Assembly: GCA_030618495.1 (NCBI GenBank)
Contig: JAUXDE010000021.1
Coordinates: forward strand, 1-18,672
Reading direction: 5' to 3'
Origin: Clostridia bacterium
Lineage (GTDB): Bacteria; UBA6262; WVXT01; JAUXBS01
DNA length: 18,672 nt
Position 1 is the stretch's first letter. Each line of letters opens with the position of its first letter. The notes below the pieces were generated by a model. It saw only the letters and a list, made by a program, of their open reading frames with translations, did not search any database and was not told the DNA's origin. The position numbers and the translations under genes were made by a program. Below are positions 2,486 through 18,647 of this stretch, in pieces.

Positions 2486-4780
2486 TTACTGCTTATTCCT
2501 GTATTTACTAAGCCACTCTTTAACCTTATGCGCATCAGGAGTGTCCGGTTTCAGTGTAAGGTATTTACTCCAGGCGCGCGCTGTTTCCTCTTTCTGTCCC
2601 TTCTGCAGGTAAGCGATGCCGAGGTTGTAGTACCCACGAGCAAAATCCGGTTGTACCCTTACGGTTTCTTTTAATTCTGTTATCGTTCTGTCTATATCGC
2701 TTTTCGTGTACATTTCCGCAAGCTTTAAATGCGCCTTGAAATGGTCCGGGTTAATTCTTGTGGCTTCCTCAAGTTCCTTCAGGAACAGCTTCTTATTCTC
2801 CTGTTTCTCATACGTCAGCGCCAGTTCGTAATGGGTGTCCGCATCCCCGGGTTTCATCGCTATTATTTCCCTGTATTTAGCTTCCGCTTTTTCATATTCA
2901 CCGGTCAGGCTATAAAGATTTGCGAGGTTCACATGAGCGTGCAGGTAGTCCGGCTTTACCTGTATTGCTTTTTTATAAGCATCAGCGGCTTTTTCATTTT
3001 TCTTTTTTTTCCGGTAAACGTTGCCAAGGTTATTGAATGCTTCATAGAAGCGCGGGTTTATCAGTGTAGCCTGTTTGAATTCGCACTCGGCATTCCTGTA
3101 CTTTTCTATTGAATAGAAAAAAGAACCTTTTTTGAAGTTGTTGTCCTGGAAAAGTTTTAAATCCCTTTTTGGTTCTTTAATAAGCGAGTTAAAATCAACC
3201 GGGTTGTTCTTGATAACATCCGCATTTCCCGGAGTGTTCCTTATGAATATTGAGGCAATGTCGTCAAACCATACCAGTTTCCAACCGGCGTCCCCGTACA
3301 ATCCGGTAAGAAGTCTCCTTGATTCCATTGAATAATGAGTGAATAATGTATAGTTTATATCGTACTCATCAGCAATTTTATTAAAAGAACTGACATCCGT
3401 AAGCGATGATTTGTACCTGTCCATGAACTGCTGGCCGTACACTTCCCATCTTCCGTCAACGAAAACCTTCCTCTCGGGATTAAGCCGCCATATCAGGTAT
3501 CCCCCTATACAGTTGGCATTGAAGATATTTCCGGTCAGGTTATTCTTTAATATGAAATCAACCGCTTTTGCGGGGTAGAGCGATTTTGACATCCCAAGCC
3601 CAAATCTCTTGGCATCGTTTTTCCTTATGTAATAAGTGTTAGTTGAAACGTTTATAATCCATATTACTGACAGGATTATCATAAAAACGGCAAATACCGA
3701 TTGCTTTACATTAATGAATTTATTATGTTTCCTGGTAAATTCAATAATTTTATCGGAACCATTCCTGATGTTTATTATCGCAACAGGAGCTGCAATGAAA
3801 GCAAACAAGGACATGTTCCTTCTTGCCTTGACCGATATATAAAGAAACCCGAGGTAAAGTATTAAATATGTTATGTTTATTCTTTTTATATTCATTAGAA
3901 ACGACATGCCCGTAAGGGCTATCAACAATATGTAATAAAACCTGACTGATGATTCCCCGGATGCCGAAAATGACGGCTGCAATTCACCAACGGTTTTCAT
4001 CCAGGCATTTGCCCCTTCCCCGATTTCAGTGAAAAGCAGGAACGGGTAGGACACTCCCCTTATCCCGTAAGGATTGATAAAACACGTAGCCAGCATCAAT
4101 AGCATGATTATCAGCAGCTTGTTCCATTTAGCGCCCCAGATGTGGTTGTTTTGGCGCAATTTCAATATTCCGGCAATAAATCCGCCCGCCAGGTATGCAA
4201 GGACAATAATGAGCCCTATGATGAAAAGCCCGTGCATGTTTGCCCAGGCAAGCTGCAGTAAGGGCAGCAGCCATATCATTTTCGTTTCCTTATGGCTGTA
4301 ATTGTGCAGTATCAGGAAATACAATCCCGTGAAAAGAACCGTCGGCATTTCAGGCCTTACCAGGAACCTCTCCTGTGTAATCATGACGGCAGTAAACAAA
4401 AACAATGATGATGTTATCATGTCATTCTTCCTGGCTATTTTTAACAGGCAAACAAAGGCGAAAATAAAAACGATTATTCTTAACAGCTGTATTCCTGTTA
4501 TTCCTCCCATGCTGTATACCAGGTAAAGTATGACCTGAAAAAGCCAGTGCGAATCAAGATATTGATTCTCCGATGCAGTGTAGGAGAACATATCACAGGC
4601 GGGGACCCTGCAATTTTCCACTATCCATTGCCCTGCTTTGAGATGGAACCAGACATCAAATCCTGAAACTTCCCTTACAAGGAAAGTTATGAGCAGGAGG
4701 AATACCAGGGATATCAACATCCATCCCAGAATATTGTTGATAGTTTCTATTGAATTATTCTGCTTGTTCAGTGTTTTCAT
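2486..4780 (-). CDS. Polytopic membrane protein, GT-C-like, with C-terminal TPR domain
   Basis: The first 380 residues of 764 are a membrane domain with roughly ten hydrophobic segments (for example 19-36, 97-115, 184-206, 222-237, 281-296, 360-378). Its first outer loop carries DVWFHLKAG (42-50), then PACDMFSYTA and DSHWLFQV; WANMHGLF follows at 178-185. This pattern is familiar from uncharacterised GT-C-type membrane proteins, where an acidic residue in the first loop is often functional; no activity can be assigned from sequence. Residues 380-545 form a soluble part with GGYLIWRLNPERKVFVDGR. Residues 545-750 hold five to six TPRs (for example AFNNLGNVYRKKKKNEKAAD). It is the last gene of the unit and overlaps the metallopeptidase gene by 26 bases; AAGGA lies just before its ATG. 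No terminator hairpin is evident after it. Confidence 0.8.
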   Translation of the reverse strand: MKTLNKQNNSIETINNILGWMLISLVFLLLITFLVREVSGFDVWFHLKAGQWIVENCRVPACDMFSYTASENQYLDSHWLFQVILYLVYSMGGITGIQLLRIIVFIFAFVCLLKIARKNDMITSSLFLFTAVMITQERFLVRPEMPTVLFTGLYFLILHNYSHKETKMIWLLPLLQLAWANMHGLFIIGLIIVLAYLAGGFIAGILKLRQNNHIWGAKWNKLLIIMLLMLATCFINPYGIRGVSYPFLLFTEIGEGANAWMKTVGELQPSFSASGESSVRFYYILLIALTGMSFLMNIKRINITYLILYLGFLYISVKARRNMSLFAFIAAPVAIINIRNGSDKIIEFTRKHNKFINVKQSVFAVFMIILSVIWIINVSTNTYYIRKNDAKRFGLGMSKSLYPAKAVDFILKNNLTGNIFNANCIGGYLIWRLNPERKVFVDGRWEVYGQQFMDRYKSSLTDVSSFNKIADEYDINYTLFTHYSMESRRLLTGLYGDAGWKLVWFDDIASIFIRNTPGNADVIKNNPVDFNSLIKEPKRDLKLFQDNNFKKGSFFYSIEKYRNAECEFKQATLINPRFYEAFNNLGNVYRKKKKNEKAADAYKKAIQVKPDYLHAHVNLANLYSLTGEYEKAEAKYREIIAMKPGDADTHYELALTYEKQENKKLFLKELEEATRINPDHFKAHLKLAEMYTKSDIDRTITELKETVRVQPDFARGYYNLGIAYLQKGQKEETARAWSKYLTLKPDTPDAHKVKEWLSKYRNKQ

Positions 4781-6368
4781 TCTTCCTTTTGAGGTTTAAA
4801 AGCCAGCCCTGGATTTCAGTATCGTAAGGGGCAAGCATGCCGGTTACTTTAAACTCCCTTACCGCTTCTTCCTTATTCCCGAGATTGAAGTGGATTAATC
4901 CCATGCTCTTGTGTATCGCGGGATTGAAGGGATTAATATGGTTTGATTTCACATACGAGTTAAGCGCTTCTTCCAGCCTGTTCCTTGAAAACAGCAGGTC
5001 TCCAAGATTAGTGTGCGTGTTGGCGGAATTAGGGTTGTACTCGAGAGATTTCTTTAAGTTTTCTTCCGCGGATTCAAACTCACCCAAATCAAAGTACGTT
5101 TTGCCGATTTTATTGAGAATCACCGGGTTTACCGGATCAAGTTCCAATGCTTTTGCATATTCTATCAGTGCAACAGGGTACATTTTCTTCTTCCTGAATT
5201 TGTTCCCCAGTCTTACATACCCCCTTGCCTCAACTCCAACGTATTCATTGGTTTCGTTCACGTTTTCATCCTTCAATTTGAAATTATCCAGGACAGCGCC
5301 CTCAGTTGCCTGGAGGTTCTTGTCCCTGATAAATTGCTTCAGTTCTTTCAGAAATTTTATGCTTGAAACACCCAGTATCTTCTTGAACGCATTGTTTTCA
5401 TTTTTATTATCCATGAATTCTCTTACAAGCGATGCCAGTTTATTACTGCCGTAGGTGGATATTATATAGTCCACTCCTGCGCCTACCTCGGCAAACGCCA
5501 TGGAAACCTCCTTTTTGTTGTCAAGGTTGGGCATGCCGTTTTTCATTTTCTCAAATTCAACCCATTGGTTATCCTCAACCGCTTCCTTGAGGAGATTTTT
5601 AACTACAGGCACCAGGTAGAGCGATTCTTCGCTTCTCCATGTTGTTTCAAAGTACCTGGCTATACCTTCATTCAGCCACAGCGGTATGTCGGAACTTGCC
5701 GTGTGAAGTATCATGTAGTGCGTGAGTTCATGGACAATACTGTCAAGCCATCTGAAGCCGAATGCCAGACAGCGCGGCGAAACTATCATGTTCCTGTTGA
5801 ACTTGCATATGCCTATTGCGCCCGAAGCCTCTATCTGCTCTTTAGTAAGGGTTGAAGCGAAGTTGAAGTCCTCGCGCCTGGAATATATTTCCGCTATTAT
5901 TTTTCTGCCTGCCTTGAATCCAAGCATGTTCCCTATCTTTCTATACCCCTTTTCCAGCGCATCAAGCACGTAATACTTTAGTATTCTGTCCCGTGGATGG
6001 ACTCTTAGGATAAAATGCTCGCTTTCGTGTTCTTCGTAGGGTTTTAGAATATCCCCGGTTCCTTTTACGAATGCAAGGAGATTCTTCCTGTACATGTTAT
6101 ACGGATCGAGGTCGCATGCTTTACTGATATGTTTTATCGCCTCAGCATAGTTACCGCTGTAAAAATACGCAAAACCCATGAGCTCATATGACTTGGCATC
6201 CTGCGGATTTTCTTTTATTGCTTTCTCCGCAGATTCCATGGCCCCTTCCGTGTCCCACAGGGATAGCCGATCATACCCCGCGGTCCTGTAGGCCTGGGCA
6301 TGCAATAAGCCAACCGATAAAAACAGTATCGCAGGTAATAATAATATGCGGATTAATTTCCTTGTCAT
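4755..6368 (-). CDS. Secreted TPR protein with peptidase MA-type metallopeptidase domain
   Basis: This is a predicted periplasmic or surface zinc peptidase with TPR scaffolds at both ends, 537 residues. A signal peptide (1-24, ending LLHA|Q) is followed by TPR-like helices at about 27-95. The central domain at about 115-345 has HELTH at 213-217 and WLNEGIARYFE at 231-241. H213, H217 and E234 are the expected zinc ligands and E214 the general base, as in gluzincins of the peptidase MA type. At least three more TPRs follow at about 383-515. The tail is short and polar. The start lies one base past the stop of the DUF4175-like gene, with only a weak upstream purine stretch, so it is probably translated by coupling. 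Substrate unknown; the complete zinc site argues that it is active. Confidence 0.85.
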   Translation of the reverse strand: MTRKLIRILLLPAILFLSVGLLHAQAYRTAGYDRLSLWDTEGAMESAEKAIKENPQDAKSYELMGFAYFYSGNYAEAIKHISKACDLDPYNMYRKNLLAFVKGTGDILKPYEEHESEHFILRVHPRDRILKYYVLDALEKGYRKIGNMLGFKAGRKIIAEIYSRREDFNFASTLTKEQIEASGAIGICKFNRNMIVSPRCLAFGFRWLDSIVHELTHYMILHTASSDIPLWLNEGIARYFETTWRSEESLYLVPVVKNLLKEAVEDNQWVEFEKMKNGMPNLDNKKEVSMAFAEVGAGVDYIISTYGSNKLASLVREFMDNKNENNAFKKILGVSSIKFLKELKQFIRDKNLQATEGAVLDNFKLKDENVNETNEYVGVEARGYVRLGNKFRKKKMYPVALIEYAKALELDPVNPVILNKIGKTYFDLGEFESAEENLKKSLEYNPNSANTHTNLGDLLFSRNRLEEALNSYVKSNHINPFNPAIHKSMGLIHFNLGNKEEAVREFKVTGMLAPYDTEIQGWLLNLKRKNENTEQAE

Positions 6369-6369
6369 T

Positions 6370-9300
6370 TTACTCAGTCAGCCTCTTGTAATATTTCTTT
6401 ATTAAATCTTTATATATCTCGGGGTATTTTTCTTTCATGGCATCCATTATATCCTGCCGGAATTCCCTGGGCACCTGATAATCCTCGGCAGTGGGTATAC
6501 GTACCTTTCTGTCCCTGAAACCCATTCTGCCCCCCGGCAGGCTGCCGCCCCTAGGCTGCATGAAACCCGGCATGCCCTGCCCGTATTGCATTCCCATACC
6601 CATCTGCTTCATCATTCCCTTCATCTGGCTGCCAGCCGCCTGCAGTCCTTCCTTCCCCTGTGTCAGATGCTGGAGAGCCGATTGTTCACTTTCCATTGCC
6701 TGGGGCGTATCCCCTTCGGAAAGAGCATTACCGGCTTTGTTCATCTCAGATGAACCGTTTTTCATATTTCCCAATATATCAGGTCCTATTGCGGAAGTTT
6801 TCATTGAAAGTTTCCTGAGCCCCTGGTTCAGGCTGTCCGTCCTCTGGCGTAATCCATTCTGCTTATCGGAAAGTTCCCGTAGTTTTTCCATGTCGTCTTT
6901 TGACAGGAAGTTGCATCCTGAATTATTCGATTTTTCAAGTTTCTCAAGGATTTTCTTTTCAGTATCATATATCCAATTAAACTCATCAGAAACATCTTTC
7001 ATCCTGTTTTTCTTTTCACCGAAGGCTTTTAATATTTCCCTGCGTTTCTTCTCCCTTTCCTTCCTTTTTGGTTTTTTATTTTTCAGCAGAATTTCAAGCT
7101 CTGCTTCTTTTTCACTCGTCAGCCTGTTTTCTATAATGCTCAGGATAGTTCTTGAAGCGTCAAGTTTTACCAGGACATTCTTAATAAAGTCCTTTGCTTT
7201 CCTGGCGGGCGGATTTACCATGTCTTCAAAGGCCTTCTGCATGTCTTTAAGGGAATCTCTTGTTCTTGATGAAAACTTACTTCGAAGTCTTGGATACTCA
7301 AGTTTCCCTTTGACACCTCCAATCAGCTTCTTTGTCCTTGATATTACTTCTTTTTGCAGTTCAGACAGTTCTTTTAGGATTTTTTCCTGTTGTTTCATAA
7401 GTTCTTCCATCATTTTTTCATCATAGCCCGCGGTTTCTTCAATGATTTTCTCCTGTTCCTCGATTATACCATCAAGTTCCTTCATGAATTCATCGGTCTC
7501 TTTTGAAAGCGAATCAAGCTCTGACGACGGGACATTGCTTGCCGCTTCCATAAGGGTGTCCATCATTTCCGAAAGCATGTCAAGCAGCTGCTGCGTTCTC
7601 GCAAGCGCGGAATCAATATTTCCTGCGGCCATGTCCTTTTGAAGTTCTTCCATGAGATTGCCCATCTCTCCGACATCCATATCCTTTATTGAATCCTGGT
7701 TAACGAACTCTTCCGGTAATTCCTGGGGCATATCCTTTAACGCTTTCTGAAGTTCATTCATCAAGTTCGATATCTCAGAAAGCGTTTTAGAAAGCTGTTC
7801 AAGTTTTTCCTTGTCCGCTTTACCCGCCAGTTCCTCAAGCGCCCGGGTAAAATCCGTCTGCTTATCTACCATCTCGTGGGCAACGTCCATGAGGTCATTC
7901 ATCTTCTGGTTCTGCAGTATATCTTCAGAAAGAAGCGCCATCTTTTCAAGTTCATCTATGATTTCCTGCTGTGTTTTAATTGCCCCGCCGGCGCGGCTGC
8001 TTCTTGACTGGGCGTCCCGCGCTTGTTCTGCGCCGGTTATTTCATTAACGGCCTGTTTCATTTTTCCACTTTCCAATAATCTTATATGGCCCGTAATATT
8101 CTTATATTCAGTGTAAGTCCTCCAGTCAACCAGGGGGTCATTTTCCATCCTCGGGAAAAGTTTTTCAATTAAGTCAACCAGGTCTCCGGCTCCTTCCCTG
8201 ACGCCTTTCTGTCTCTCCTTTGAATCCTTTAACTTTTCAAGCGAATCCGCGGTTTTTGCTTTTTCCAGTGCATCCTTTGCCATTATCTGGTCGCCCAGAA
8301 GGTTCATCAGCCTGTCCCTGAAATCCGCAAGACCTTCTTCTATTTCCCTGTGTTCCTTTTCATAACTGAAAACCTCAATGTAGAAAGTTCTGCTCACTCC
8401 CTTGTTGGGCCCTGAAATCAGGTCATTATCACTTACCTCTATATAGTAACTAAGAATATCTCCCGGCCTTAAACTCAACTTCCCCATGTCCCATTCATAA
8501 TTCACAATTTTCATTTCAACGGCCGGCTTGAACCTCTTAATGGTTAACCTTTCAGGTTCAAAGTCGGACAATTCCGATTTCTGATAAACAAGTTCAACCT
8601 TCTTAACTCCGAAATCATCTTTCACCTCACAGGCAATGTCAATTACGCTCTCCTGGGATACAACGAGGTCCATGTCAGGCGCAATCATCTTTACCCCGGG
8701 TTCCTCATCCTTCAATATCGTTATCCTGTGCCGTACGGGGTCCTCATTCATGTATCCCAGGCTGTCCTCAACCGTAAGGCTGTACTCCTCTTCCCCAGTA
8801 AGCAGTAGTGAACTCTCCAGTTCAATACCCTTTCTTATTTTAACCGGGAAACGCTTACCGTCATTAGTGACAAGAAAACCCTTTTTAATGCTCTTGTTTG
8901 CCCTGGCGGATATTTTAACCTTAGTTCCATACAGCGCTTCTATATCTCCGTTAGTGTTTTCAACAATTCTTTCAGAAATTCCCGCATATGAAGGGTAGTG
9001 ATATACCAATGATATATCACCTATTTCCGGCAGTGTTATTACTTTCACCGAATAAACCGGTGACTGCGCATTACTCCACTTAACGAAGTATTCCATGTCG
9101 GAAGACAGGTTTTCAAATTCATGGATGTATTTCCTTTGTCTTTTCCCTTCTTCCTGCTCTTTCAGGGCATTCATTCGCATACTATTCCAAGCCCCGCCGG
9201 TTTCCCGGTAACTTATGAAAGCCTTTCCCCTTCTTTCCTGGATAATCACTTCAACCTTGAGGTTTTTTCCGGACATTATCTCGATATCTCCCGGCAATAC

Positions 9301-9885
9301 TTTCATGAGACTGCTTATCCGCCCGTAATCCATGGGGTTGAACAACCTCGGCAATGTTGTCCTCATTATACGAGGGGGTACGATAGCAAGCATAATGAAA
9401 AGAAAGAAAACCGCTAAATTCGGAACAAGGTACTTCTTCAGGGGAAATTTCACGACATCAAGAGGATTTATTTTTGAGGCGTTTATTGCGGTGTTTTTAA
9501 CGAGAGTGTCGATTAAATCATGTGAAACCCACGGGTTTTCATCTTTCTTTAATTTTCCAAGCTGTAATGCGTTTACAAGGTCGTCTGACAGAGCGGGGCA
9601 GCTTTTCTGTATGACCAATGCAGTATCATCGTCGGAGTTTCTTGTAAATAAAGGTCTAATAATAAACCATATAGAACATATTATAATTTGCCCGACTATG
9701 CTGTAAAGAATCCACAGCCGCTGTATGGAAGTAAAGGAAATGAAATAATCAAGAAGTGATTCAATGATTATTAAGCATATAAAAATAAAGCATGTCAGGC
9801 AGGAACCCTTGAATAAATCACTTAACCTTAGTTTTATCCGAACCTTTCGTATAATATGAATTATTTTTTTGTAATCATTTATCAT
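6370..9885 (-). CDS. Large DUF4175-like membrane protein with long helical region
   Basis: This 1171-residue protein resembles the DUF4175 family, whose function is unknown. Two membrane segments lie at about 28-50 and 57-79, and a third at 152-171. Residues 195-505 look like beta-rich Ig-like modules (VYHYPSYAG; DFGVKKVELVY; GDILSYYIEVSDND). Residues 510-1085 are highly charged and helical, rich in E, K, M and L, likely coiled coil, with a basic patch at 935-950. A Met/Gly/Gln-rich stretch at 1088-1110 precedes a conserved-looking tail (VRIPTAEDY, then an EFRQDIMDAMKEKYPEIY segment and YYKRL). The ATG at 9885 has AAGG 8 nt upstream. It is separated by 84 nt from the glycosyltransferase gene before it and by 1 nt from the peptidase gene after it. 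By context it is probably a partner of the vWA proteins; the large soluble part is probably outside the cytoplasm, which is inference. Confidence 0.8.
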   Translation of the reverse strand: MINDYKKIIHIIRKVRIKLRLSDLFKGSCLTCFIFICLIIIESLLDYFISFTSIQRLWILYSIVGQIIICSIWFIIRPLFTRNSDDDTALVIQKSCPALSDDLVNALQLGKLKKDENPWVSHDLIDTLVKNTAINASKINPLDVVKFPLKKYLVPNLAVFFLFIMLAIVPPRIMRTTLPRLFNPMDYGRISSLMKVLPGDIEIMSGKNLKVEVIIQERRGKAFISYRETGGAWNSMRMNALKEQEEGKRQRKYIHEFENLSSDMEYFVKWSNAQSPVYSVKVITLPEIGDISLVYHYPSYAGISERIVENTNGDIEALYGTKVKISARANKSIKKGFLVTNDGKRFPVKIRKGIELESSLLLTGEEEYSLTVEDSLGYMNEDPVRHRITILKDEEPGVKMIAPDMDLVVSQESVIDIACEVKDDFGVKKVELVYQKSELSDFEPERLTIKRFKPAVEMKIVNYEWDMGKLSLRPGDILSYYIEVSDNDLISGPNKGVSRTFYIEVFSYEKEHREIEEGLADFRDRLMNLLGDQIMAKDALEKAKTADSLEKLKDSKERQKGVREGAGDLVDLIEKLFPRMENDPLVDWRTYTEYKNITGHIRLLESGKMKQAVNEITGAEQARDAQSRSSRAGGAIKTQQEIIDELEKMALLSEDILQNQKMNDLMDVAHEMVDKQTDFTRALEELAGKADKEKLEQLSKTLSEISNLMNELQKALKDMPQELPEEFVNQDSIKDMDVGEMGNLMEELQKDMAAGNIDSALARTQQLLDMLSEMMDTLMEAASNVPSSELDSLSKETDEFMKELDGIIEEQEKIIEETAGYDEKMMEELMKQQEKILKELSELQKEVISRTKKLIGGVKGKLEYPRLRSKFSSRTRDSLKDMQKAFEDMVNPPARKAKDFIKNVLVKLDASRTILSIIENRLTSEKEAELEILLKNKKPKRKEREKKRREILKAFGEKKNRMKDVSDEFNWIYDTEKKILEKLEKSNNSGCNFLSKDDMEKLRELSDKQNGLRQRTDSLNQGLRKLSMKTSAIGPDILGNMKNGSSEMNKAGNALSEGDTPQAMESEQSALQHLTQGKEGLQAAGSQMKGMMKQMGMGMQYGQGMPGFMQPRGGSLPGGRMGFRDRKVRIPTAEDYQVPREFRQDIMDAMKEKYPEIYKDLIKKYYKRLTE

Positions 9886-9889
9886 AATT

Positions 9890-9906
9890 AAAACCTTGAT
9901 GGTTTT
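9890..9906 (-). promoter_or_regulatory. Small hairpin over the ribosome binding site of the DUF4175-like gene
   Basis: On the minus strand AAAACC, loop ATCAA and GGTTTT form a 6-bp stem. The AAGG that would serve as the ribosome binding site lies partly in its loop and 3' arm. It sits in the only sizeable gap (84 nt) within the long transcription unit. The stem is short and AT-rich, so it may be weak or accidental. It lacks the GC stem and U-run of an intrinsic terminator. Confidence 0.25.
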
Positions 9907-9969
9907 GTTTTTTTAGTATAACCGTATTATTTTCTTATTCATTTAATTCACTCTTTTGACGGATTATAT

Positions 9970-11346: not shown

Positions 11347-12323
11347 AAATCACCCCTGTCTTTGTACCACTTTATGCTGTCCTTCATTCCCTGCTCAAAA
11401 TCAACCCTTGGCTCGAATCCGAGTTCCTTCCTTATTCTTGATATGTCGTATATCCAGTAGGAATCCCTGGTTTCCCTGACGCTCCGCCGGCTGAAGAATG
11501 ATTTTTTCCCGGTTAGTTTTGATATTATTTCCACAAGGAACGCACCGGCAAACATAACCGGGTACGTTAACTTAATAACCGGCGGCCCTATGTCCAGGTG
11601 CTTACGCGCAAGTTCAATTACATAACGCCAGGAGTACACATTTCCATCGGAAATGAAATAGGTCTTGCCTTTTGATTCGCTCTTCTCGCCGGCAAGAATG
11701 ATTCCGTTCACGAGATCGCTTACAAAACAAAGGCTTGCCTGCCTGTCGCCGTTCCCAAGCAAGGGTATAAACCTGCGCTTTACGAGTTTGAGCAAATCAA
11801 GGAAATCATCCTCCCGTGTCCCCAGTATAGTAGTCGGTCTTATTATAGTAACCGGGATTTTAGCCTTAAGTTTCTCAAGTTCCTGTTCGGCAAGCAGTTT
11901 GCTCTTGCCGTAATCGGATACGGGCATTGGGTCATCCTCTTCATTTATTGGCTTTCCCCTGCCCCCGGGGCCCGCGGCTGATATGCTGGATATGAAAACA
12001 AATCTTTTCAGGCGCGTATTGGTTTCAACGCATACTTCGGCAAGATTTTTTGTGCCCGCACAGTTTGCGTTATAATATTCCAGCCAATCCTTCCCTTTTA
12101 TGATTCCTCCAACGTGGTAGATGTAGTCCATGCCTTTCACTGCGGCATAAAGGGACTCCTTATCCCTGCAGTCCCCAATATGCGTTTTTATATCAAGCCC
12201 CTTCAGCCATCTGAAATTGCTTGTCTTCCTTATCAGGCAGTGTACCCGGTAGCCCTTTTTAATAAGCGCTTCAACAAGGTGGCTGCCGATAAAACCGTTA
12301 CTGCCGGTTACAAGTGCTTTCAT
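11343..12323 (-). CDS. NAD-dependent epimerase/dehydratase (extended SDR)
   Basis: This is a nucleotide-sugar or dihydroflavonol-reductase-like extended SDR of 326 residues. The Rossmann motif GSNGFIG lies at 7-13, the catalytic serines at FISSIS near 110-115, and YGKSK gives Y138 and K142. IRPTTILGTRE and a typical C-terminal substrate domain follow. A slightly longer form could start at TTG 12338. I prefer the ATG at 12323 because AAAGGA sits 6 nt upstream, inside that extension, and MKALVTGSNG is the usual N-terminus. It follows the broken TPR gene by 11 nt and overlaps the GT-C gene by 4 bases, so it probably prepares or modifies the sugar or lipid used by that enzyme. The exact reaction is not identifiable. 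Confidence 0.88.
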   Translation of the reverse strand: MKALVTGSNGFIGSHLVEALIKKGYRVHCLIRKTSNFRWLKGLDIKTHIGDCRDKESLYAAVKGMDYIYHVGGIIKGKDWLEYYNANCAGTKNLAEVCVETNTRLKRFVFISSISAAGPGGRGKPINEEDDPMPVSDYGKSKLLAEQELEKLKAKIPVTIIRPTTILGTREDDFLDLLKLVKRRFIPLLGNGDRQASLCFVSDLVNGIILAGEKSESKGKTYFISDGNVYSWRYVIELARKHLDIGPPVIKLTYPVMFAGAFLVEIISKLTGKKSFFSRRSVRETRDSYWIYDISRIRKELGFEPRVDFEQGMKDSIKWYKDRGDL

Positions 12324-12334
12324 AATTAATCCTT

Positions 12335-12544
12335 TCAATTATACATGCCCGAGTATTTTCTTGCCCTGGGCAGGAACTTCTTTGCTTTTTCATGCCCGGG
12401 GTCAATCCTGAGGGCTTCTTCAAACTCTTTCACCACTTTTTCCCATTTTCTTAACTTACAGTAAACCACCCCGAGGTTATAATGCGCGTCGGGCTTGGCG
12501 GGGCTAAGAACTGCTGCGGTCTCGTATGATTATATATTCTTCAT
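12335..12544 (-). pseudogene. Remnant of a TPR protein gene
   Basis: An ATG (12544-12542) overlaps the stop of the upstream vWA gene as ATGA, the usual form of a coupled gene start. It reads only MKNI before TAA (12532-12530). The same frame then continues for 64 codons to a TGA at 12337-12335. That stretch is clearly TPR: PDAHYNLGVVYCKL, then KVVKEFEEALRIDPGHEKAKK, ending KYSGMYN. It has no start codon except near its end. The simplest reading is a TPR gene that lost its middle by deletion, leaving its first codons and last repeat. TPR proteins (BatC, BatE) are normal members of related vWA operons, which makes a lost partner plausible. A sequencing error cannot explain it, since too much of the protein is missing. 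Confidence 0.75.
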
Positions 12545-14766
12545 AACATACCGTTTTTCCTGCGTAAGTACCATTGGACAGTAAGAAGCGCGCAAATCAG
12601 CGTAAAAATAAATGCGCTGTTCCAAACGCTTACCTTTCTTAGCGCGGTTGCAGCCTTCTTTTCCCTCTCCGGGAATTTTATCTCTTCTTCACTGATACTG
12701 CTTATATTGAAGTACTTTCCGCCTGATGCTTCTGATATATCCCTGAGTAGAGGTTCATTAAGCTGCGGGTCTTCAAGTTCGATGGTCGGGACCGCTACCT
12801 CGCAGGTTAATTCATCTGCCCCGAGTTTTATGCCGCCCTTGTAAGCCTCAGACCTGAACTTGTAACTGCCTTCAATATTACCCGCGTAGTCAGCTTCGTA
12901 CCGTCCTTCAACTTTCCGGACTGCGGGGATTATTCCAAGGTCAATCTTTTTTCCGCTCGGGTTAATTACCGAAACATACACGGAAACGCCGTTGTTGGGC
13001 CTGTAGTACTTGTCAAAAACCCTCACGTTAAGTTTTATCTCCTCGTCCCTCATGAAAACCTTTTTATCGGCTGAGAGGTGCACAAGTTTCATGTCCTCAG
13101 CCTGTATGAGCCACCTTATTGCCTGCGACCAGAAACGGTTGTAATAGTAGTTTCCCTTGCCTTCCGCGGCAAGCTGGAAGCTCCACCTCCAGGTTGTGTT
13201 GGAAGCCATTGTCATCACTCTTCCCTTGCCGGCGTCCCAGACGCATAATACCGGCAGGTTCCCGTACTCGTTTGCCGCCATGGGATGCGAGCCGAGGAGA
13301 ACCGCTCCCGGTTTTGGTTTTAACAGCTGGTTACAACTGTCAAGGTCAGGCATTGATTCCCAGATTTTTCTGTTCTCTTTCGGGTCATTCGACAATTGGA
13401 CTATCGGATGGCTGTACCGGTTCACCCTCATACTGAACGTTCCCAGAGATATCTTCTCGTCATTTCCCGACAGTTCAACGGGGAGTATTTCATATAGAGG
13501 TGTTGACTTGTACCCACCCTTCCCGAACGAATTGTCACCCCCGAGCATCAGGAATGCTCCGCCGTATTCCTTAACAAACTTCCTGATATTGTCCAGGTAG
13601 CCATGTGTTATCCTGAAACGCGAGTACTTGAAGTTTTCAAACACCAGCAGGTCAAAGTTATATATTTCTTTCGTAAAAATCTCCCTGATTGGAAAAGGTA
13701 TAAGCGCAAGCTGTGATTCAGGGACGATTGTTACATTTTCAGGATTTCTGAGTATATTGAATGATACGAAATCCAGCGTAGGATCCGCCTTCAGGGCGTT
13801 CCTGAGGAAGCTGTACTCCCAGCTAGGCTGGCCGCATATATACATTATGCGTATCTTATCCCTTACGACCTGCATGGTGAACTTCCTGGCATTGTTCTTA
13901 TGGGAAACCTCGGAACCGTACGTCGGTATGTTCACCGTGTACTTGAAGGTTCCAACTCTCTTCGGGACAAAACTGAATGCTATCTTTGTCTTCTCATTGT
14001 TGCTTTTTATTTTAACCTTCTTAGTCTGCAGTATCCCGTCAACGTTTTTCAGTATAACAGGCACGGTCCAGCCCGCGAAACCGAACCCCGAAAGCGTAAC
14101 TTCAACATTGGTGGGGGTATTTTTAAAAGCAAACTCAGGCGCTTCAACTTTAGATACCTGAAGGTCGATGTACTTACCCGGGTCACCCACTCCTATGGTG
14201 TATACAGGGACTTCGCAGTCCATGGCTGATTCAACAGGTGAAAAAGCTCCGTTGTGCGCCCCGTCACTTATAAGGATTACTCCGTTGAGGATATTTCCCG
14301 GCATTTCCTTTTCAACCTGGCGGATGGCAAGCCCGATATCCGTTTTTCTGCCTTCAGGGTTTGACTTTGAGATGTTGGCTATGGTTGTTCTCTGGCTGCT
14401 GCCCGAGAAAGTAAAGATAAGCGGTTTGTACCTGCCTCCGAGTTCATGCATGATAGTGTTGAATCTTGAACCTCTTTCTTCCCCGAAGAACTTTTTTACC
14501 TGATGAAAACGAGACGTGGCGTCCTTTGTCTTCATGCTCATTGACGAATCTACCAGAAACGCAATCACCGGCTTTTTACTTGAGTGTTTGTATACAGTCC
14601 TTGCCGGCTGGAACAGGATGAAGAGCAATAACAGAAAAATAATTACCCTGATTGCGGTAAGCGCTTTCCTTCTTGCCTCAATTCGTTTGAAGCAATACTG
14701 TATAATCCATACTATCCCGGAGAGGATAATCAGTATAATCCATAATTTAACGGGTTGAAAAACCAT
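12541..14766 (-). CDS. Membrane vWA protein with amidotransferase-like domain (COG5426 type)
   Basis: This 741-residue protein has membrane segments at about 8-27 and 39-53 and a C-terminal one at 717-733, which puts most of it outside the cytoplasm. A vWA domain at about 66-195 has a full MIDAS: DSSMS at 73-77, T142 and D168. An Ig-like part (200-300) is followed by a class I glutamine-amidotransferase-like domain at about 303-555, with YICGQPSWEY, the strand GGAFLMLGGDNSF (402-414) and VMTMASNTTWRWSF. The position where the catalytic cysteine elbow would lie reads LGGD, so enzyme activity is unlikely. A second beta-rich part (560-660) precedes the last membrane segment. The gene follows DUF4159 by 6 nt, with AAGGAAG upstream. 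The domain order matches an uncharacterised family found beside MoxR-type genes; role by context: envelope complex. Confidence 0.85.
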   Translation of the reverse strand: MVFQPVKLWIILIILSGIVWIIQYCFKRIEARRKALTAIRVIIFLLLLFILFQPARTVYKHSSKKPVIAFLVDSSMSMKTKDATSRFHQVKKFFGEERGSRFNTIMHELGGRYKPLIFTFSGSSQRTTIANISKSNPEGRKTDIGLAIRQVEKEMPGNILNGVILISDGAHNGAFSPVESAMDCEVPVYTIGVGDPGKYIDLQVSKVEAPEFAFKNTPTNVEVTLSGFGFAGWTVPVILKNVDGILQTKKVKIKSNNEKTKIAFSFVPKRVGTFKYTVNIPTYGSEVSHKNNARKFTMQVVRDKIRIMYICGQPSWEYSFLRNALKADPTLDFVSFNILRNPENVTIVPESQLALIPFPIREIFTKEIYNFDLLVFENFKYSRFRITHGYLDNIRKFVKEYGGAFLMLGGDNSFGKGGYKSTPLYEILPVELSGNDEKISLGTFSMRVNRYSHPIVQLSNDPKENRKIWESMPDLDSCNQLLKPKPGAVLLGSHPMAANEYGNLPVLCVWDAGKGRVMTMASNTTWRWSFQLAAEGKGNYYYNRFWSQAIRWLIQAEDMKLVHLSADKKVFMRDEEIKLNVRVFDKYYRPNNGVSVYVSVINPSGKKIDLGIIPAVRKVEGRYEADYAGNIEGSYKFRSEAYKGGIKLGADELTCEVAVPTIELEDPQLNEPLLRDISEASGGKYFNISSISEEEIKFPEREKKAATALRKVSVWNSAFIFTLICALLTVQWYLRRKNGML

Positions 14767-14772
14767 AAATAC

Positions 14773-15531
14773 TTACTTCCTTATTTTAAACTTCAATTTT
14801 TTGTCAATGTAGGGCTGGTGCACCATGTCCTTTTTGTAGGTCCCGGTCAATGAATACATTATGAGGTTCATAGTTAATTTCATTGCCTCCAGCCGCTGTG
14901 TTTCGCCCCCGGGGATGCATTCATAAAGCCAGTTTCCCATCCTATCCCTTGCCCACGCTCCCAGCAGATTATTCTGAGAATATACAACGGCCGTCCTCCT
15001 GCCCACTGTAAGTCCTTCAAGGTGCCTGTTTACAATCTTTCTTCCGCCCACTTCCCTTAACAGGTAATACGCCCTGTATATGGCATGGTCTCCAGGTAGT
15101 TTTTCAAGCTTCTTACCAGGGAATAATTGTTTTATTAACTCCCTGGCGCACCTGTCAAAACCATGGTTCCTGTGTCCGATGGCATCATCCATGATAAGCA
15201 GTCCCCCGCAGAGCAGATACTGCCGAAGTATCTTTATCTCCTTATCGGTGAACCTGTCGAATTTTCTGTCACCTACCATCCACATGAACGGGGAAATAAA
15301 CAGGTTCCTGTGAGTCAGCGATATATCGTTTCTGCGCAGTTGGGGCTTGACGCTCGTTGTAGTCATGAGCAGGTTCATTATTTCAGCAAAACTTGACGGG
15401 TACATGTTCCAGTTCCCGCCGCGGTACTTCAACTGCGAGAAAACGAAATGGTCCCTCTGCTGGGCTGAAGTAAAAGAACATGTAAAAACTAACACCGAAA
15501 CAATGATTATAACCGTTTTTTCCAGTTTCAT
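14773..15531 (-). CDS. DUF4159 family exported protein
   Basis: This protein has 252 residues. A signal peptide covers 1-23 (ending TSA|QQ). The mature part matches the DUF4159 pattern: FSQLKYRGGNWNMYP (31-45), NDISLTHRNLFISPFMW, LRQYLLCGGLLIMDDAIGH (102-120), a run ending PGDHAIYRAYYLL, and late LGAWARDRMGNWLYE. The family has no established function and is thought to have an amidotransferase-like fold. It starts 39 nt after the BatA-like gene, with AAGGAAG close to its ATG, and ends 6 nt before the next vWA gene. By its invariant company it is probably an extracytoplasmic partner of those two vWA proteins. Confidence 0.85.
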   Translation of the reverse strand: MKLEKTVIIIVSVLVFTCSFTSAQQRDHFVFSQLKYRGGNWNMYPSSFAEIMNLLMTTTSVKPQLRRNDISLTHRNLFISPFMWMVGDRKFDRFTDKEIKILRQYLLCGGLLIMDDAIGHRNHGFDRCARELIKQLFPGKKLEKLPGDHAIYRAYYLLREVGGRKIVNRHLEGLTVGRRTAVVYSQNNLLGAWARDRMGNWLYECIPGGETQRLEAMKLTMNLIMYSLTGTYKKDMVHQPYIDKKLKFKIRK

Positions 15532-15570
15532 ATAATCTTCCTTTCAATGGCTTCAATTAAATACTTCGTT

Positions 15571-17745
15571 TTATTCTTCTCGATTTCTCCGGTTTGCCAC
15601 GTAACCTTCAAGCATAAATAATCCAAAAATAAATATTACAGCCATTTTGCTGGCTTCCTTGCCGTGCAGGACGCTTAAAAGGATTTTTTCAAGTTCCGCC
15701 AGTTTGCCGATAAGAATGACCGGGGTTTGCGGCAGGAGCTTTTTAATATCCCTCATTTTTATTTTCGTTAAATCCGACTCTCCCAATTCAGCATCCAGGT
15801 TATATACAACGTGTTCCTTCCTGCTTCTTCCGGCTTCAACCCATTCAAACTCATATATTCCCGGTTCTCCCGCCCCGCTGAATTCAATTCCGTTAAATGC
15901 CTCGCTCTTAACAGGCAGAATGATTTCCTTTTTGCCTGATGGCAGCCTTAGCGTTACCCTGTCCGGGATGTTGGCTGTTTTAAGAGGGATTATGGCAGGT
16001 TCGCCTATCTTGAGCGAATCCCTGTACCCTTCTTTTGAAGACCTTTCGGTCATGTAACTCATAACCTGCTGCATTAACGGCAGAAATAAAGGCTTTGCCG
16101 GAAAATTATTCCATTCCCTGTCCACTGTAGACGTAAAAAGCATTATCCTGCCGGATTTTGAATAGGGCAGTCTTCTTTCAAGCATCAGTGGCTGGCCCTC
16201 GTGTTCCATGTTTTTATTACGACCAGAGGCAACCCTCAGTAAAACCTTTGAATTCTCCGCGGGCCGGACCTTGTACCAGCTGAAAAACCTGCCGAGAGAT
16301 AAATCACTCTGTTCTTCACCCGAGAATATCTTTAACGCAGGATGTTTCTCATCACGGTACCCTATTGTCCAGCCCTTCTCATAGCGGCTGATTTCATCCA
16401 GCTTCCCCGGCAGAAGGCCTCCCAAAAAATCATTGTAAAAATCCTTGTTTACATTATCTCCGAGAAAAAAGATAAGGCCTCCGCCTTTCCTGACGAAATC
16501 GTACATGCTCTTTATCTGGACTTCATTAAACTCTTTAACGTTTGCCGATATCATGACCGAAAACTCCGGGAGATTATAATTACCCAGCTCATTTACGGTT
16601 ATTATGGTAGGTATGATTGAGAGTCCTTTATCATACGGGTCAAGGGCAAAACGCAGGTAAAAAGTTTCCTTGTCAAACGAGGAAAACCCGGGTTCACCGT
16701 CAATACACAATACTCTTATTTTGTCATGCACGGATGTTTTAAACCAGTAACAGTCATCCACGGCAAGAGCGTCTTCCTTTATGTTGATTTTGCCCAGGTA
16801 AGTGCCTTCCTCCGGGAAGTTATAGAAGAAATCCTTTTCCTTCTCCTCTTTCTTCTGCAGTTCTATAAAACCCTGGTCAGCCTTGCGCCCTTCCTTAATT
16901 CCATTGGTTCTGCCGGCTACGGACATCCAGACAAGGAGGTTGGATACGGCCGAGTCCGAGAAATTATTTATAGTTGCCTTTATCTTCATCATCTGCCCCG
17001 TGGTCATGACGCCCTTTTCCATGCCTGTAACCGCAATGTTCGGGCTGTCGGTTTTGGCGACGTCAATTATGATAAGTTTTACTTTGGGGTCGTATTTATT
17101 TATTGCATCTTCATTTATTTCAGCCCAGCCGTTTTGGGCCATGTCGGTGATAAGGATAATCTGCTTATTAGGTGAAAGCGACCCCTTCAACAGGGAATAC
17201 GCTTCCGAAACAGCAGGCAGTATATTGGAAGACCGCGGGCCCAGTGAACTGTTCTCAATTTCATCAATGAGTATATCGGTGTCTGAAGTAAGGTACTTAA
17301 TCCCTGCTTCCAGCCTGTCAGATACGAGCAGGTAAGCCGTCCTGTCGTATTTTTCCATCAGTTTCAATATGCGTTTAGCCGCATCCTTTGCTATGCTGAA
17401 ACGTTCTGACTGTTCTTCCTTGTATCCCATTGAATACGAACTGTCAAGCACGATGACGTTAGAAAGCGAAGTATCCCTTCCACGGGCAAATATCGGAGCC
17501 ACGTGAACTATTGGACGGGCGAAGAGTAATACGAGCAGGAGCAGAAGAAGCGTTCTCAGTAAAAGCAGAAGCAGTTGTTTAAGCTTATGTCGCTTGACGA
17601 CTTTTGTCGAGGCAAGTTGTATGAACTTCACATAACTGAACTTGCGCGTTATCGTCTTTTTCTTTGACAGCAGGTGAATGATAATAGGAATAGAAATGAC
17701 CGGCAGTCCGGCAAGAAACCATGGATTCAAGAAGGAAATATTCAT
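15571..17745 (-). CDS. BatA-like membrane vWA protein
   Basis: The N-terminus (FLNPWFLAGLPVISIPIIIHLL) and the second hydrophobic segment at 57-77 are the BatA-type N-terminal domain. A vWA domain at about 96-230 follows, with MIDAS residues DSSYS (101-105), S173 in place of the usual Thr, and D201 (ITDMAQNGW). A beta-rich part (235-335) leads to an amidotransferase-like domain at about 340-570 (IRVLCIDGEPGFS; FVRKGGGLIFFLGDN). A final membrane segment lies at about 700-714. At 724 residues it is about twice the size of a plain BatA. Its ATG overlaps the DUF58 stop as TAATG, so translation is coupled, and GGGAG lies upstream. BatA-type proteins form membrane complexes with MoxR and other vWA proteins; their precise function is unsettled. 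Confidence 0.87.
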   Translation of the reverse strand: MNISFLNPWFLAGLPVISIPIIIHLLSKKKTITRKFSYVKFIQLASTKVVKRHKLKQLLLLLLRTLLLLLLVLLFARPIVHVAPIFARGRDTSLSNVIVLDSSYSMGYKEEQSERFSIAKDAAKRILKLMEKYDRTAYLLVSDRLEAGIKYLTSDTDILIDEIENSSLGPRSSNILPAVSEAYSLLKGSLSPNKQIILITDMAQNGWAEINEDAINKYDPKVKLIIIDVAKTDSPNIAVTGMEKGVMTTGQMMKIKATINNFSDSAVSNLLVWMSVAGRTNGIKEGRKADQGFIELQKKEEKEKDFFYNFPEEGTYLGKINIKEDALAVDDCYWFKTSVHDKIRVLCIDGEPGFSSFDKETFYLRFALDPYDKGLSIIPTIITVNELGNYNLPEFSVMISANVKEFNEVQIKSMYDFVRKGGGLIFFLGDNVNKDFYNDFLGGLLPGKLDEISRYEKGWTIGYRDEKHPALKIFSGEEQSDLSLGRFFSWYKVRPAENSKVLLRVASGRNKNMEHEGQPLMLERRLPYSKSGRIMLFTSTVDREWNNFPAKPLFLPLMQQVMSYMTERSSKEGYRDSLKIGEPAIIPLKTANIPDRVTLRLPSGKKEIILPVKSEAFNGIEFSGAGEPGIYEFEWVEAGRSRKEHVVYNLDAELGESDLTKIKMRDIKKLLPQTPVILIGKLAELEKILLSVLHGKEASKMAVIFIFGLFMLEGYVANRRNREE

Positions 17746-18647
17746 TATTTGAACTTCTCCCTTCTCGTCAGGTACAACCCGAGCGCTCGGTCAAGCGGTT
17801 CGGAAGTGTTAATCTGAGTGTAGTCTATACCAGAGTTCCTGCAATTTAGTTTATAATTATTGATGAACCCGTTAATTATTCTTGAATACTCTTTCCTGAT
17901 TATATCAGGTTCTGACAATATCTTCCGGCCGTTTTCCATGTCTTCATAAAGAACGGATTCCCCGTACGGAAGTTCCAACTCAGCCCTGTCAAGCAGTTGG
18001 AATACGATAACCTCGTTCTTCTTAAAGCGGAAATGCTTGAGGGCTTTAATCACCTCTTCCTGCTCATCAAGTAAATCTGAAATGATAATTACCAGCCCCC
18101 TTCGCTTTAGGTAAGGGCCCATCCCCTGCAGAGCTCCGCTTATTTTTGTTTCGCTTGAGGGCCGGACCTTCTCCAGTTCACTAAGGAGCGCTGCAAGGTG
18201 CCCTGTGCTCTGCCTCGGTGGGATATGTTTTCTTATCCTGCTGTCAAAAGTGCTCAGCCCAACCGAATCATGCTGTTTAATCATCAGGTATGAAAGCGCC
18301 GCTGCAGCCATCGCGCCGTACTCAAGTTTGGATACTCCGTTTGACCTGTAGCCCATAGAGGCGCTCGTATCAAGGAGGATATAGCAGCGCATATTGGTTT
18401 CCTCCTCGTACTGCTTCACGTAATGGCGGTCTGTCTTCGCGTAAACCTTCCAGTCAAGGTGCTTCAAGTCATCCCCAGCCGCATACTCCCTGTGCTGGGC
18501 AAAATCCAGGCTGTACCCCTTGAGGGGGCTCTGGTGCATCCCGGAAATAAAACTATCAACCACGAACCTTGCCCTGAGAAGCATCCCTGAAAGTTTTGCA
18601 ATCATGACAGGATCAAGTATTTTCTTCTTATCAGCCATGTTAAACAT
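17745..18647 (-). CDS. DUF58 family vWA protein
   Basis: This cytosolic-looking 300-residue protein has the DUF58 signature HREYAAGDDLKHLDWKVYAKT (52-72) and an embedded vWA-like domain with MIDAS residues DTSAS (93-97), T167 (TKISGAL) and D191 (IISDLLD). DUF58 proteins are almost always encoded next to a MoxR AAA+ ATPase, which would be expected just outside the right edge. It ends in TAATG with the BatA-like gene. The start is uncertain: ATG at 18647 gives MFNMADKKK and ATG at 18638 gives MADKKK; neither has a ribosome binding site in the AT-rich 25 bases available. Confidence 0.88.
   Translation of the reverse strand: MFNMADKKKILDPVMIAKLSGMLLRARFVVDSFISGMHQSPLKGYSLDFAQHREYAAGDDLKHLDWKVYAKTDRHYVKQYEEETNMRCYILLDTSASMGYRSNGVSKLEYGAMAAAALSYLMIKQHDSVGLSTFDSRIRKHIPPRQSTGHLAALLSELEKVRPSSETKISGALQGMGPYLKRRGLVIIISDLLDEQEEVIKALKHFRFKKNEVIVFQLLDRAELELPYGESVLYEDMENGRKILSEPDIIRKEYSRIINGFINNYKLNCRNSGIDYTQINTSEPLDRALGLYLTRREKFK

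Follow-up and report, generated by a model that had tools for sequence, protein, structure and literature searches.

Do the genes that follow one another along one strand of this contig make up a single envelope machine, and which of them would be its parts? The window, that is, the whole stretch of DNA that was analysed (18,672 nt), is an entire contig that ends 25 nt upstream of the DUF58 gene, and therefore no sequence is found just right of the window. The same-strand run (2486-18647, minus strand) comprises nine intact genes and one decayed TPR gene:

17745..18647, minus strand, DUF58 protein (PF01882, 175 bits)
15571..17745, minus strand, BatA-like vWA protein (PF07584, 63.8 bits; VWA_2, 38.6 bits)
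14773..15531, minus strand, DUF4159 protein (PF13709, 119.8 bits)
12541..14766, minus strand, vGAT, a vWA plus GATase1-like protein (PF00092, 31.6 bits; PF07090, 36.1 bits)
12335..12520, minus strand, remnant of a TPR gene (TPR_2, E 7e-9)
11343..12323, minus strand, NAD-dependent epimerase/dehydratase family protein (PF01370, 134 bits)
9970..11346, minus strand, PMT_2/ArnT-like GT-C glycosyltransferase (PF13231, 67.5 bits)
6370..9885, minus strand, DUF4175 protein of 1171 aa (PF13779, 77.5 bits, gathering cut-off 27.3)
4755..6368, minus strand, predicted TPR zinc peptidase of the Peptidase MA superfamily (PF13485, 57.7 bits, cut-off 32.4)
2486..4780, minus strand, multi-TM protein with C-terminal TPRs (TPR profiles only)

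An earlier note on this DNA had described the same run and its remnant, with coordinates, strand, overlaps and gaps that all proved correct on rechecking, while its count of eight intact genes rises to nine. DUF58 and BatA overlap by 1 nt (TAATG), gaps of 39 nt and 6 nt separate BatA from DUF4159 and DUF4159 from vGAT, an ATGA junction lies at the TPR remnant, the epimerase and PMT_2 genes overlap in GTGA, PMT_2 and DUF4175 are 84 nt apart, DUF4175 and the peptidase 1 nt, and the peptidase overlaps the TM-TPR gene by 26 nt. The two GT-C proteins of that note are reduced to one, as the PMT_2 assignment at 9970-11346 holds and the protein at 2486-4780 consists of TM segments and TPRs only, with no match to a glycosyltransferase profile. 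An Rfam search of the window gave no matches.

The linkage of the two halves of the run, the first ending in vGAT and the second beginning with DUF4175, was a point on which the earlier note let its claim depend, and it was found in a sister family and in several phyla. Four sister-family genomes, in which the genes were followed along one contig or over a gap between contigs, carry one run in the order MoxR-DUF58-BatA-DUF4159-vGAT-DUF4175-(one unrelated gene)-TPR peptidase, in which the halves abut at a distance of 9 nt. When named genomes were scanned with the peptidase alignment as query, the immediate upstream neighbour of the peptidase was DUF4175 in 68 of 72 testable loci, the immediate downstream neighbour was MoxR in 42 of 71, and all seven genes stood together in 9 of 80 loci (Nitrospinota, Entotheonella and 'Deltaproteobacteria' MAGs). 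DUF4159 was close by in 14 of the 25 loci outside the order that were found by DUF4175 similarity alone; a scan of the genome collection with a single DUF4175 protein as query returned no matches, and an alignment of 11 DUF4175 sequences contained no usable conserved stretch. The set recurs, often as a single operon, and its usual gene order elsewhere is DUF4175 - TPR peptidase - MoxR - DUF58 - BatA - DUF4159 - vWA/GATase, and the window holds six of these seven genes. On this synteny, a chance pairing of conserved genes is refuted, the vWA proteins, DUF4159, DUF4175 and the TPR peptidase stand as one conserved unit with MoxR, as had been proposed, and the module genes almost certainly form a functional unit. 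Many loci hold the DUF4175-peptidase(-MoxR) part alone and other lineages DUF4159-DUF4175 alone; joint action of all seven is therefore not required everywhere. In the literature searched, the seven-gene set is not described, DUF4175 is mentioned by a single paper and DUF4159 by none.

MoxR itself, which the earlier note suggested looking for just right of the window, is encoded outside the window. Two MoxR genes are present in the genome, neither of them on this contig, and the sole module-type orthologue lies on contig C3 among other genes; in a MoxR tree it groups with the sister-family module MoxRs (support 96/98). Here MoxR seems not to be linked to the DUF58 gene of the module.

Among the vWA proteins, DUF58 is predicted to be soluble, with no TM segment, and has a complete MIDAS (D93, S95, S97, T167, D191) that is identical in all 16 module homologues, whereas the set is only partly conserved in BatA and vGAT. 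From hydropathy and charge pattern, BatA is predicted to have two N-terminal TM segments, a large periplasmic part and a C-terminal TM segment; DxSxS and D201 are conserved in its vWA domain, no conserved MIDAS Thr was seen in the alignment, and weak matches to ThuA and ABC_transp_aux (E 0.049) were obtained. In the BatA-type protein BB0173, the vWA domain has been shown to be periplasmic (PMC5700661). vGAT, with two N-terminal and one C-terminal TM segments predicted, keeps D73, S75 and D168 in 12 of 12 aligned sequences and matches the solved GATase1-like structure 3rht (E 7e-15). The DUF4159 protein, related to the solved structure 4i66 (Hoch_4089, E 3e-63), is predicted to be exported by a Sec-like signal, and in most distant modules the signal is twin-arginine-like, with an RRx[FIL] motif in 7 of 8 distant homologues.

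The DUF4175 protein has three TM segments, three Ig-like domains (about residues 190-507), a helical part (508-1094) and conserved C-terminal helices (1133-1170), with a structure model at pLDDT 83.8. Structure searches matched residues 189-507 to Ig/FN3 domains generally and found no specific relative of the helical region. Orthologues in the sister family are 39-41% identical. The protein scores above the PF13779 gathering cut-off, and its likeness to the alphaproteobacterial TIGR02302/DUF4175 proteins consists of the Pfam DUF4175 and C-terminal region; against TIGR02302 only this C-terminal part is matched (27.7 bits over residues 995-1164), far under the cut-off of 394.3. Acinetobacter AdvA, an experimentally studied protein annotated as DUF4175, is a cell-division protein whose description gives it a DUF4175 domain and a pair of TM helices (PMC7481262); it was considered and left out of the reading below. 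The peptidase, modelled at pLDDT 93.5 and predicted to be exported, carries a HELTH...E motif flanked on both sides by TPRs, and H213, E214, H217, E234 and E241 are identical in 45 of 45 aligned sequences; Foldseek/VIA-align searches with the model matched mainly its TPR parts. The Peptidase MA score together with HExxH and the downstream Glu suggests an exported zinc peptidase for which proteolysis is predicted.

How the seven products might act together can be outlined as follows. In the cytosol, MoxR and DUF58 would work as an AAA+/vWA pair and spend ATP on remodelling a complex in the inner membrane, made up of BatA and vGAT, the two vWA proteins that face the periplasm, and of the exported DUF4159 protein. 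DUF4175 would be the membrane-anchored periplasmic rod of this vWA/DUF4159 complex, and the TPR zinc peptidase a periplasmic effector or client that processes or clears envelope proteins, the outcome being envelope integrity as with the homologous Rhizobium operon. These steps differ in how far they can be trusted. An envelope role is likely, because of homology to the Rhizobium RL3499-RL3502-type operon, and, somewhat less firmly, the seven-gene module without its passenger genes probably acts as one envelope system. That the peptidase is under the control of the MoxR/vWA machine is a tentative proposal, and the full chain, in which the cytosolic MoxR ATPase would act across the inner membrane, through the MIDAS vWA proteins and the amidotransferase-fold vGAT/DUF4159, to drive a DUF4175 rod by which the peptidase is presented or gated, must be regarded as speculative. 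What survives of the single envelope machine of the earlier note is thus the conserved unit, with the envelope pointed to by the Rhizobium homology, and not its glycan parts. If correct, the model would describe a widespread ATP-linked machine for quality control or maturation of envelope proteins that acts where ATP is absent. It would tie several long-unexplained families (DUF4175, DUF4159, vWA/GATase) to one machine, and the presence of a DUF4175 rod and a TPR peptidase in the MoxR-DUF58 unit across several phyla would name missing partners. Its function can be tested in culturable strains of Myxococcus and Corallococcus that have the DUF4175-peptidase pair.

The genes lying between and behind the conserved ones bear on two other readings. 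In this place, the epimerase, PMT_2 and TM-TPR genes are confined to the genus of the window, and they are more likely passengers than conserved parts of the module. The epimerase also adjoins vGAT in the same-genus genome G001 (72% identity), for PMT_2, five related genomes hold no orthologue and the best elsewhere is 30-31%, and the TM-TPR gene, which has paralogues on contigs C61, C84 and C117 of the genome, adjoins the peptidase within the genus only (on C268 of G001, the peptidase at 71% is followed by the TM-TPR gene at 64%). The remnant (12335-12520) corresponds to the end of a TPR protein, has no start and an early stop, and is probably non-functional; in G001 this junction holds a shorter homologous remnant (local score 60, whereas 500 shuffles reached no more than 35), no other similar DNA occurs elsewhere in the genome, and no TPR gene lies directly upstream of the epimerase orthologues examined. 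A machine for glycan assembly or protein glycosylation, with the vWA proteins and the protease serving PMT and epimerase, could be read from the position of these two overlapping genes inside the run and from the epimerase junction conserved within the genus. It is nonetheless very improbable: neither turned up in any other module that was examined, the epimerase orthologues of the sister family belong to a separate glycosyltransferase/aminotransferase-like cluster, and the earlier idea that the glycosyltransferase-like genes and the epimerase are machine parts is unsupported in view of their absence beside the module genes in the four sister-family genomes and in distant modules. Equally improbable, as far as the conserved genes go, are two or three independent transcription units abutting by chance in this genome, although the epimerase, PMT_2 and TM-TPR genes may be such neighbours. 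Gaps of 202 nt and 84 nt, a pseudogene and genus-specific genes do lie between the halves, but these are adjacent in the sister family and form one run in several phyla, and among the matches listed no minus-strand terminator-like match falls inside the two gaps.

That the module is an ordinary aerotolerance or oxidative-stress Bat operon might be supposed from the BatA N-terminal domain, DUF58 and MoxR, all common to Bat operons. This is quite unlikely, as the hallmark BatD has no match in the window and is found in a separate canonical operon on contig C101 (MoxR-DUF58-...-BatA-BatB-TPR-BatD), whose MoxR falls in a different clade from that on C3. A secretion or surface-assembly apparatus, in which DUF4175 would serve as a structural arm and the peptidase would mature the cargo, is less improbable than these but still unlikely; the three Ig-like domains of DUF4175, the weak ABC_transp_aux match of BatA and part types like those in the available description of the predicted archaeal secretion system around arCOG01314 (PMC5898192) speak for it, while the likeness to that system is one of architecture rather than of demonstrated homology, and the module showed no conserved channel of the outer membrane, cargo signal or surface protein.

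Compared with known systems, the module, read here as an envelope system, shares MoxR, DUF58 and a BatA-type periplasmic vWA protein with the Bat operons of Bacteroides, Leptospira and Borrelia, which have BatB, BatC/TPR and BatD and are not known to carry DUF4159, vGAT, DUF4175 or the TPR peptidase. With the archaeal arCOG01314 system it has in common a MoxR-family ATPase, extracytoplasmic vWA and Ig-like domains and a flavodoxin-like membrane protein, but the families differ, and no DUF58, DUF4159 or peptidase is among the parts given in the available description (PMC5898192). The ternary MoxR-vWA systems of biological conflict were set aside, since the window shows no beta-propeller partner and the defence search no match that convinces; a PADLOC anti-phage search with the module proteins gave only a weak peptidase match (21.5 bits, E 2e-5, residues 293-442).

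A Rhizobium leguminosarum operon has homologous MoxR, DUF58, BatA, DUF4159 and vGAT (vGAT E 5e-72) in the same order as the module, its proteins matching the module profiles, but with BatA and DUF4159 fused and no DUF4175 or TPR peptidase alongside. The operon examined lies on a plasmid of another strain and by gene content would be of the RL3499-RL3502 type, which encodes MoxR of the MRP subfamily, DUF58 and two membrane proteins. Homologues of all five proteins are present in the genome, four in the window and MoxR on C3. RL3499 is reported to play an important part in membrane integrity and cell morphology (PMC3893208), and insertions in RL3499 or RL3500 to impair growth on complex medium (PMC5118466). 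Caulobacter has DUF4159 and no DUF4175 match, and the Rhizobium phenotype may therefore not extend to the DUF4175/peptidase half. In NorQ/NorD, MoxR and its vWA partner are an ATP-driven remodeller (PMC9976466), and both NorQ/NorD and RavA/ViaA, which differ from the module in their single cytosolic vWA partner, their known enzyme client and the lack of a periplasmic vWA set, have an AAA+ ring that acts on a membrane protein by way of a vWA partner with MIDAS, much as the module would in the reading preferred here.

The window comprises the whole of contig C154 (18,672 bases, from a 1.69-Mb draft genome in 179 contigs that is 98% complete). Nine genes on its minus strand are intact, and a tenth survives as a remnant. 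The earlier note had counted eight intact genes, and its description of the overlaps and gaps at the junctions agrees with the sequence.

Genes of the run on the minus strand in transcript order (5' to 3'), with families assigned by Pfam
Gene 1: DUF58
Gene 2: BatA plus vWA
Gene 3: DUF4159
Gene 4: vWA plus GATase1-like (vGAT)
Between vGAT and epimerase: TPR remnant
Gene 5: NAD-dependent epimerase
Gene 6: PMT_2 glycosyltransferase (PMT)
Gene 7: DUF4175
Gene 8: TPR plus Peptidase MA
Gene 9: multi-TM protein with TPRs (TM-TPR)

Two GT-C proteins had been proposed in this run; Pfam bears this out for PMT, but the TM-TPR protein matches no glycosyltransferase profile. Window 2-2215 (minus strand) encodes a secreted chitinase-like protein, assigned to GH18 by eye, whose gene continues past the contig end. 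Since a promoter-like element upstream of it (2350-2323) matches the sigma-70 consensus perfectly (12/12, 16-nt spacer), this gene is probably transcribed separately.

The earlier note had named a lack of conserved linkage between the two halves of the run as grounds to reject its single envelope machine; the sister family shows such linkage. The window's taxonomic order is small: G001 (same genus, 76% complete) and four genomes of a sister family were compared, and in the latter the genes run MoxR-DUF58-BatA-DUF4159-vGAT-DUF4175-one unrelated gene-TPR peptidase. There the halves adjoin, 9 nt separating vGAT from DUF4175, and the module proteins share about 39-61% identity with those of the window. 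This order lies on one contig each in G004 and G005, while contig breaks interrupt it within DUF4175 in G002 and within vGAT in G003. The gene at the DUF4175/peptidase junction is a GuaA-like PP-loop ATPase gene by eye (L041 4866-5801, L042 8984-9919, L045 2339-3274).

Named GTDB genomes were also scanned with a peptidase profile, and partner genes were identified by six-frame profile searches at the 80 loci given by the best 80 of 355 matches, which span Elusimicrobia, Planctomycetes (Brocadia), Nitrospinota, Candidatus Binatia, Entotheonella, Myxococcota, Desulfobacterales and other 'Deltaproteobacteria'. Among these best 80, DUF4175 lies immediately 5' of the peptidase at 68 of the 72 loci with sufficient flank, often with a 4-nt overlap, and MoxR immediately 3' at 42 of 71; because the peptidase served as query, these counts give the frequency of partners beside such peptidases and not that of the module. 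All seven families occur on one strand at nine of the best-80 loci (L093, L112, L114, L117, L139, L142, L145, L165 and L167). The commonest complete order is DUF4175-peptidase-MoxR-DUF58-BatA-DUF4159-vGAT, which is permuted in the Nitrospinota loci L142 and L145 and likewise in the window's order. A separate sample, drawn by DUF4175 similarity alone from 79 genomes, gave 25 loci outside the taxonomic order; the stretch fetched includes DUF4159 at 14 of them, and one or more of DUF4159, vGAT, BatA, DUF58 and MoxR at 17 (the MoxR of L061 is of the Bat type). L112 and L048 are apparently one contig (same size, identical MoxR) and are to be taken as a single locus. A second arrangement, with DUF4159 directly before DUF4175 and no MoxR block nearby, is seen in L057, L063, L065, L067, L068, L071 and L073. 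In several deltaproteobacterial modules, an exported metallo-beta-lactamase-fold protein follows vGAT (L093 13777, L117 14408, L139 17677, L140 8260, L165 15703; PF13483 in the two scanned, the remaining ones called from a similar start) and is a possible eighth member.

The window's genome holds two MoxR genes. One, on contig C101, belongs to a canonical Bat operon (L053 8898-18181) of MoxR, DUF58, SurA_N-like, BatA, BatB-like, TPR, BatD and TPR-SH3 genes. The other, on contig C3, shares 80-81% identity with the MoxR of the sister-family module and clusters with it in the tree (96/98 support); its neighbours are an Sm_multidrug_ex-type gene and, on the other side, a gene without family match that overlaps the MoxR stop codon. 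Because this orthologue groups with the module MoxR and sits among other genes, the module's MoxR appears to have been relocated in this lineage. Since the window reaches just 25 nt beyond the start of DUF58, a third MoxR might conceivably have been lost in an assembly gap; no obvious ribosome-binding site precedes the annotated DUF58 start. Contig C3 also encodes, 2.3 kb upstream of the module MoxR (8713-9744), a further and shorter TPR Peptidase-MA-like protein whose start is lipoprotein-like (L054 5063-6379), and Brocadia genomes likewise have a second short peptidase copy close to DUF4175.

The sister-family run lacks the epimerase, PMT and TM-TPR genes. In G001, what comes after vGAT is a shorter homologue of the window's TPR remnant (score 60 in local alignment; the best of 500 shuffles reached 35). 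The epimerase is next (72% identity), and the contig stops there; on another contig the TM-TPR gene (64%) comes after the peptidase (71%). This shared vGAT-remnant-epimerase arrangement indicates that the epimerase insertion is genus-wide and that disruption of the TPR gene probably predates the split of the two genomes. No PMT orthologue was found in the five relatives, the incomplete G001 among them. Sister-family epimerase orthologues (45-46%) lie in another cluster, flanked by glycosyltransferase-like and aminotransferase-like genes (both by eye); at L182 66-3581 and L184 380-3828 these resemble glycolipid-type glycosyltransferase and serine-palmitoyltransferase genes (by eye), and the cluster is possibly one for lipid modification.

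As to the module proteins, DUF58 is soluble and retains the full MIDAS set in 16/16 aligned sequences. In BatA, DxSxS and the aspartate are conserved (each position in 14 or 15 of the 15 sequences), with no conserved MIDAS threonine seen among these 15, and vGAT keeps D73, S75 and D168 in 12/12. Both are predicted to carry a pair of TM helices at the N terminus, joined by a positively charged loop, and a single one at the C terminus. This would place their vWA and GATase-like parts in the periplasm, consistent with what experiments show for BB0173, a BatA-type protein (PMC5700661). DUF4159, a family with a solved structure (4i66), is predicted to be exported from its signal-like N-termini, which are twin-arginine-like in 7/8 distant modules (among them the starts at L093 10762, L112 15855, L117 11247, L140 5258, L142 2993 and L165 12600) and Sec-like in the window's order, suggesting that the export route switched within one family. 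DUF4175 has three predicted TM helices with a positive N terminus, three Ig-like domains, some 590 helical residues and, at the C terminus, a conserved motif about 40 residues long; its structure model is fair (pLDDT 83.8, pTM 0.51), so how the domains lie relative to one another is uncertain. The N terminus of the peptidase is signal-like, its gluzincin domain has TPRs on either side, and H213, E214, H217, E234 and E241 are invariant in 45 aligned sequences.

MoxR-DUF58-BatA-DUF4159-vGAT has a homologous, colinear counterpart in a plasmid operon of Rhizobium leguminosarum (vGAT profile E 5e-72), in which BatA is fused to DUF4159; by gene content this operon would be of the RL3499-RL3502 kind. 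RL3499 is reported to matter for membrane integrity and cell morphology (PMC3893208), and transposon insertions in RL3499 and RL3500 impair growth on complex medium, a class tied by the authors to the envelope (PMC5118466). A MoxR-family gene of Rhodobacter, RSP_1024, appears in the list of direct targets predicted for the envelope regulator CenR (PMC9275681). Moreover, the MoxR/vWA pair NorQ/NorD remodels a membrane-protein client in an ATP-driven manner via the MIDAS site (PMC9976466), and mycobacterial MoxR1 reportedly interacts with a Tat-exported wall hydrolase (PMC12067865). Because of these reports together, we favour an envelope assembly or quality-control machine, in which, judging from adjacency and topology, the peptidase would be the effector and DUF4175 the physical link. 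In the open-licence literature searched, no description was found of a recurrent seven-gene unit with DUF4175 and the TPR peptidase; the MoxR-DUF58-BatA combination is already known.
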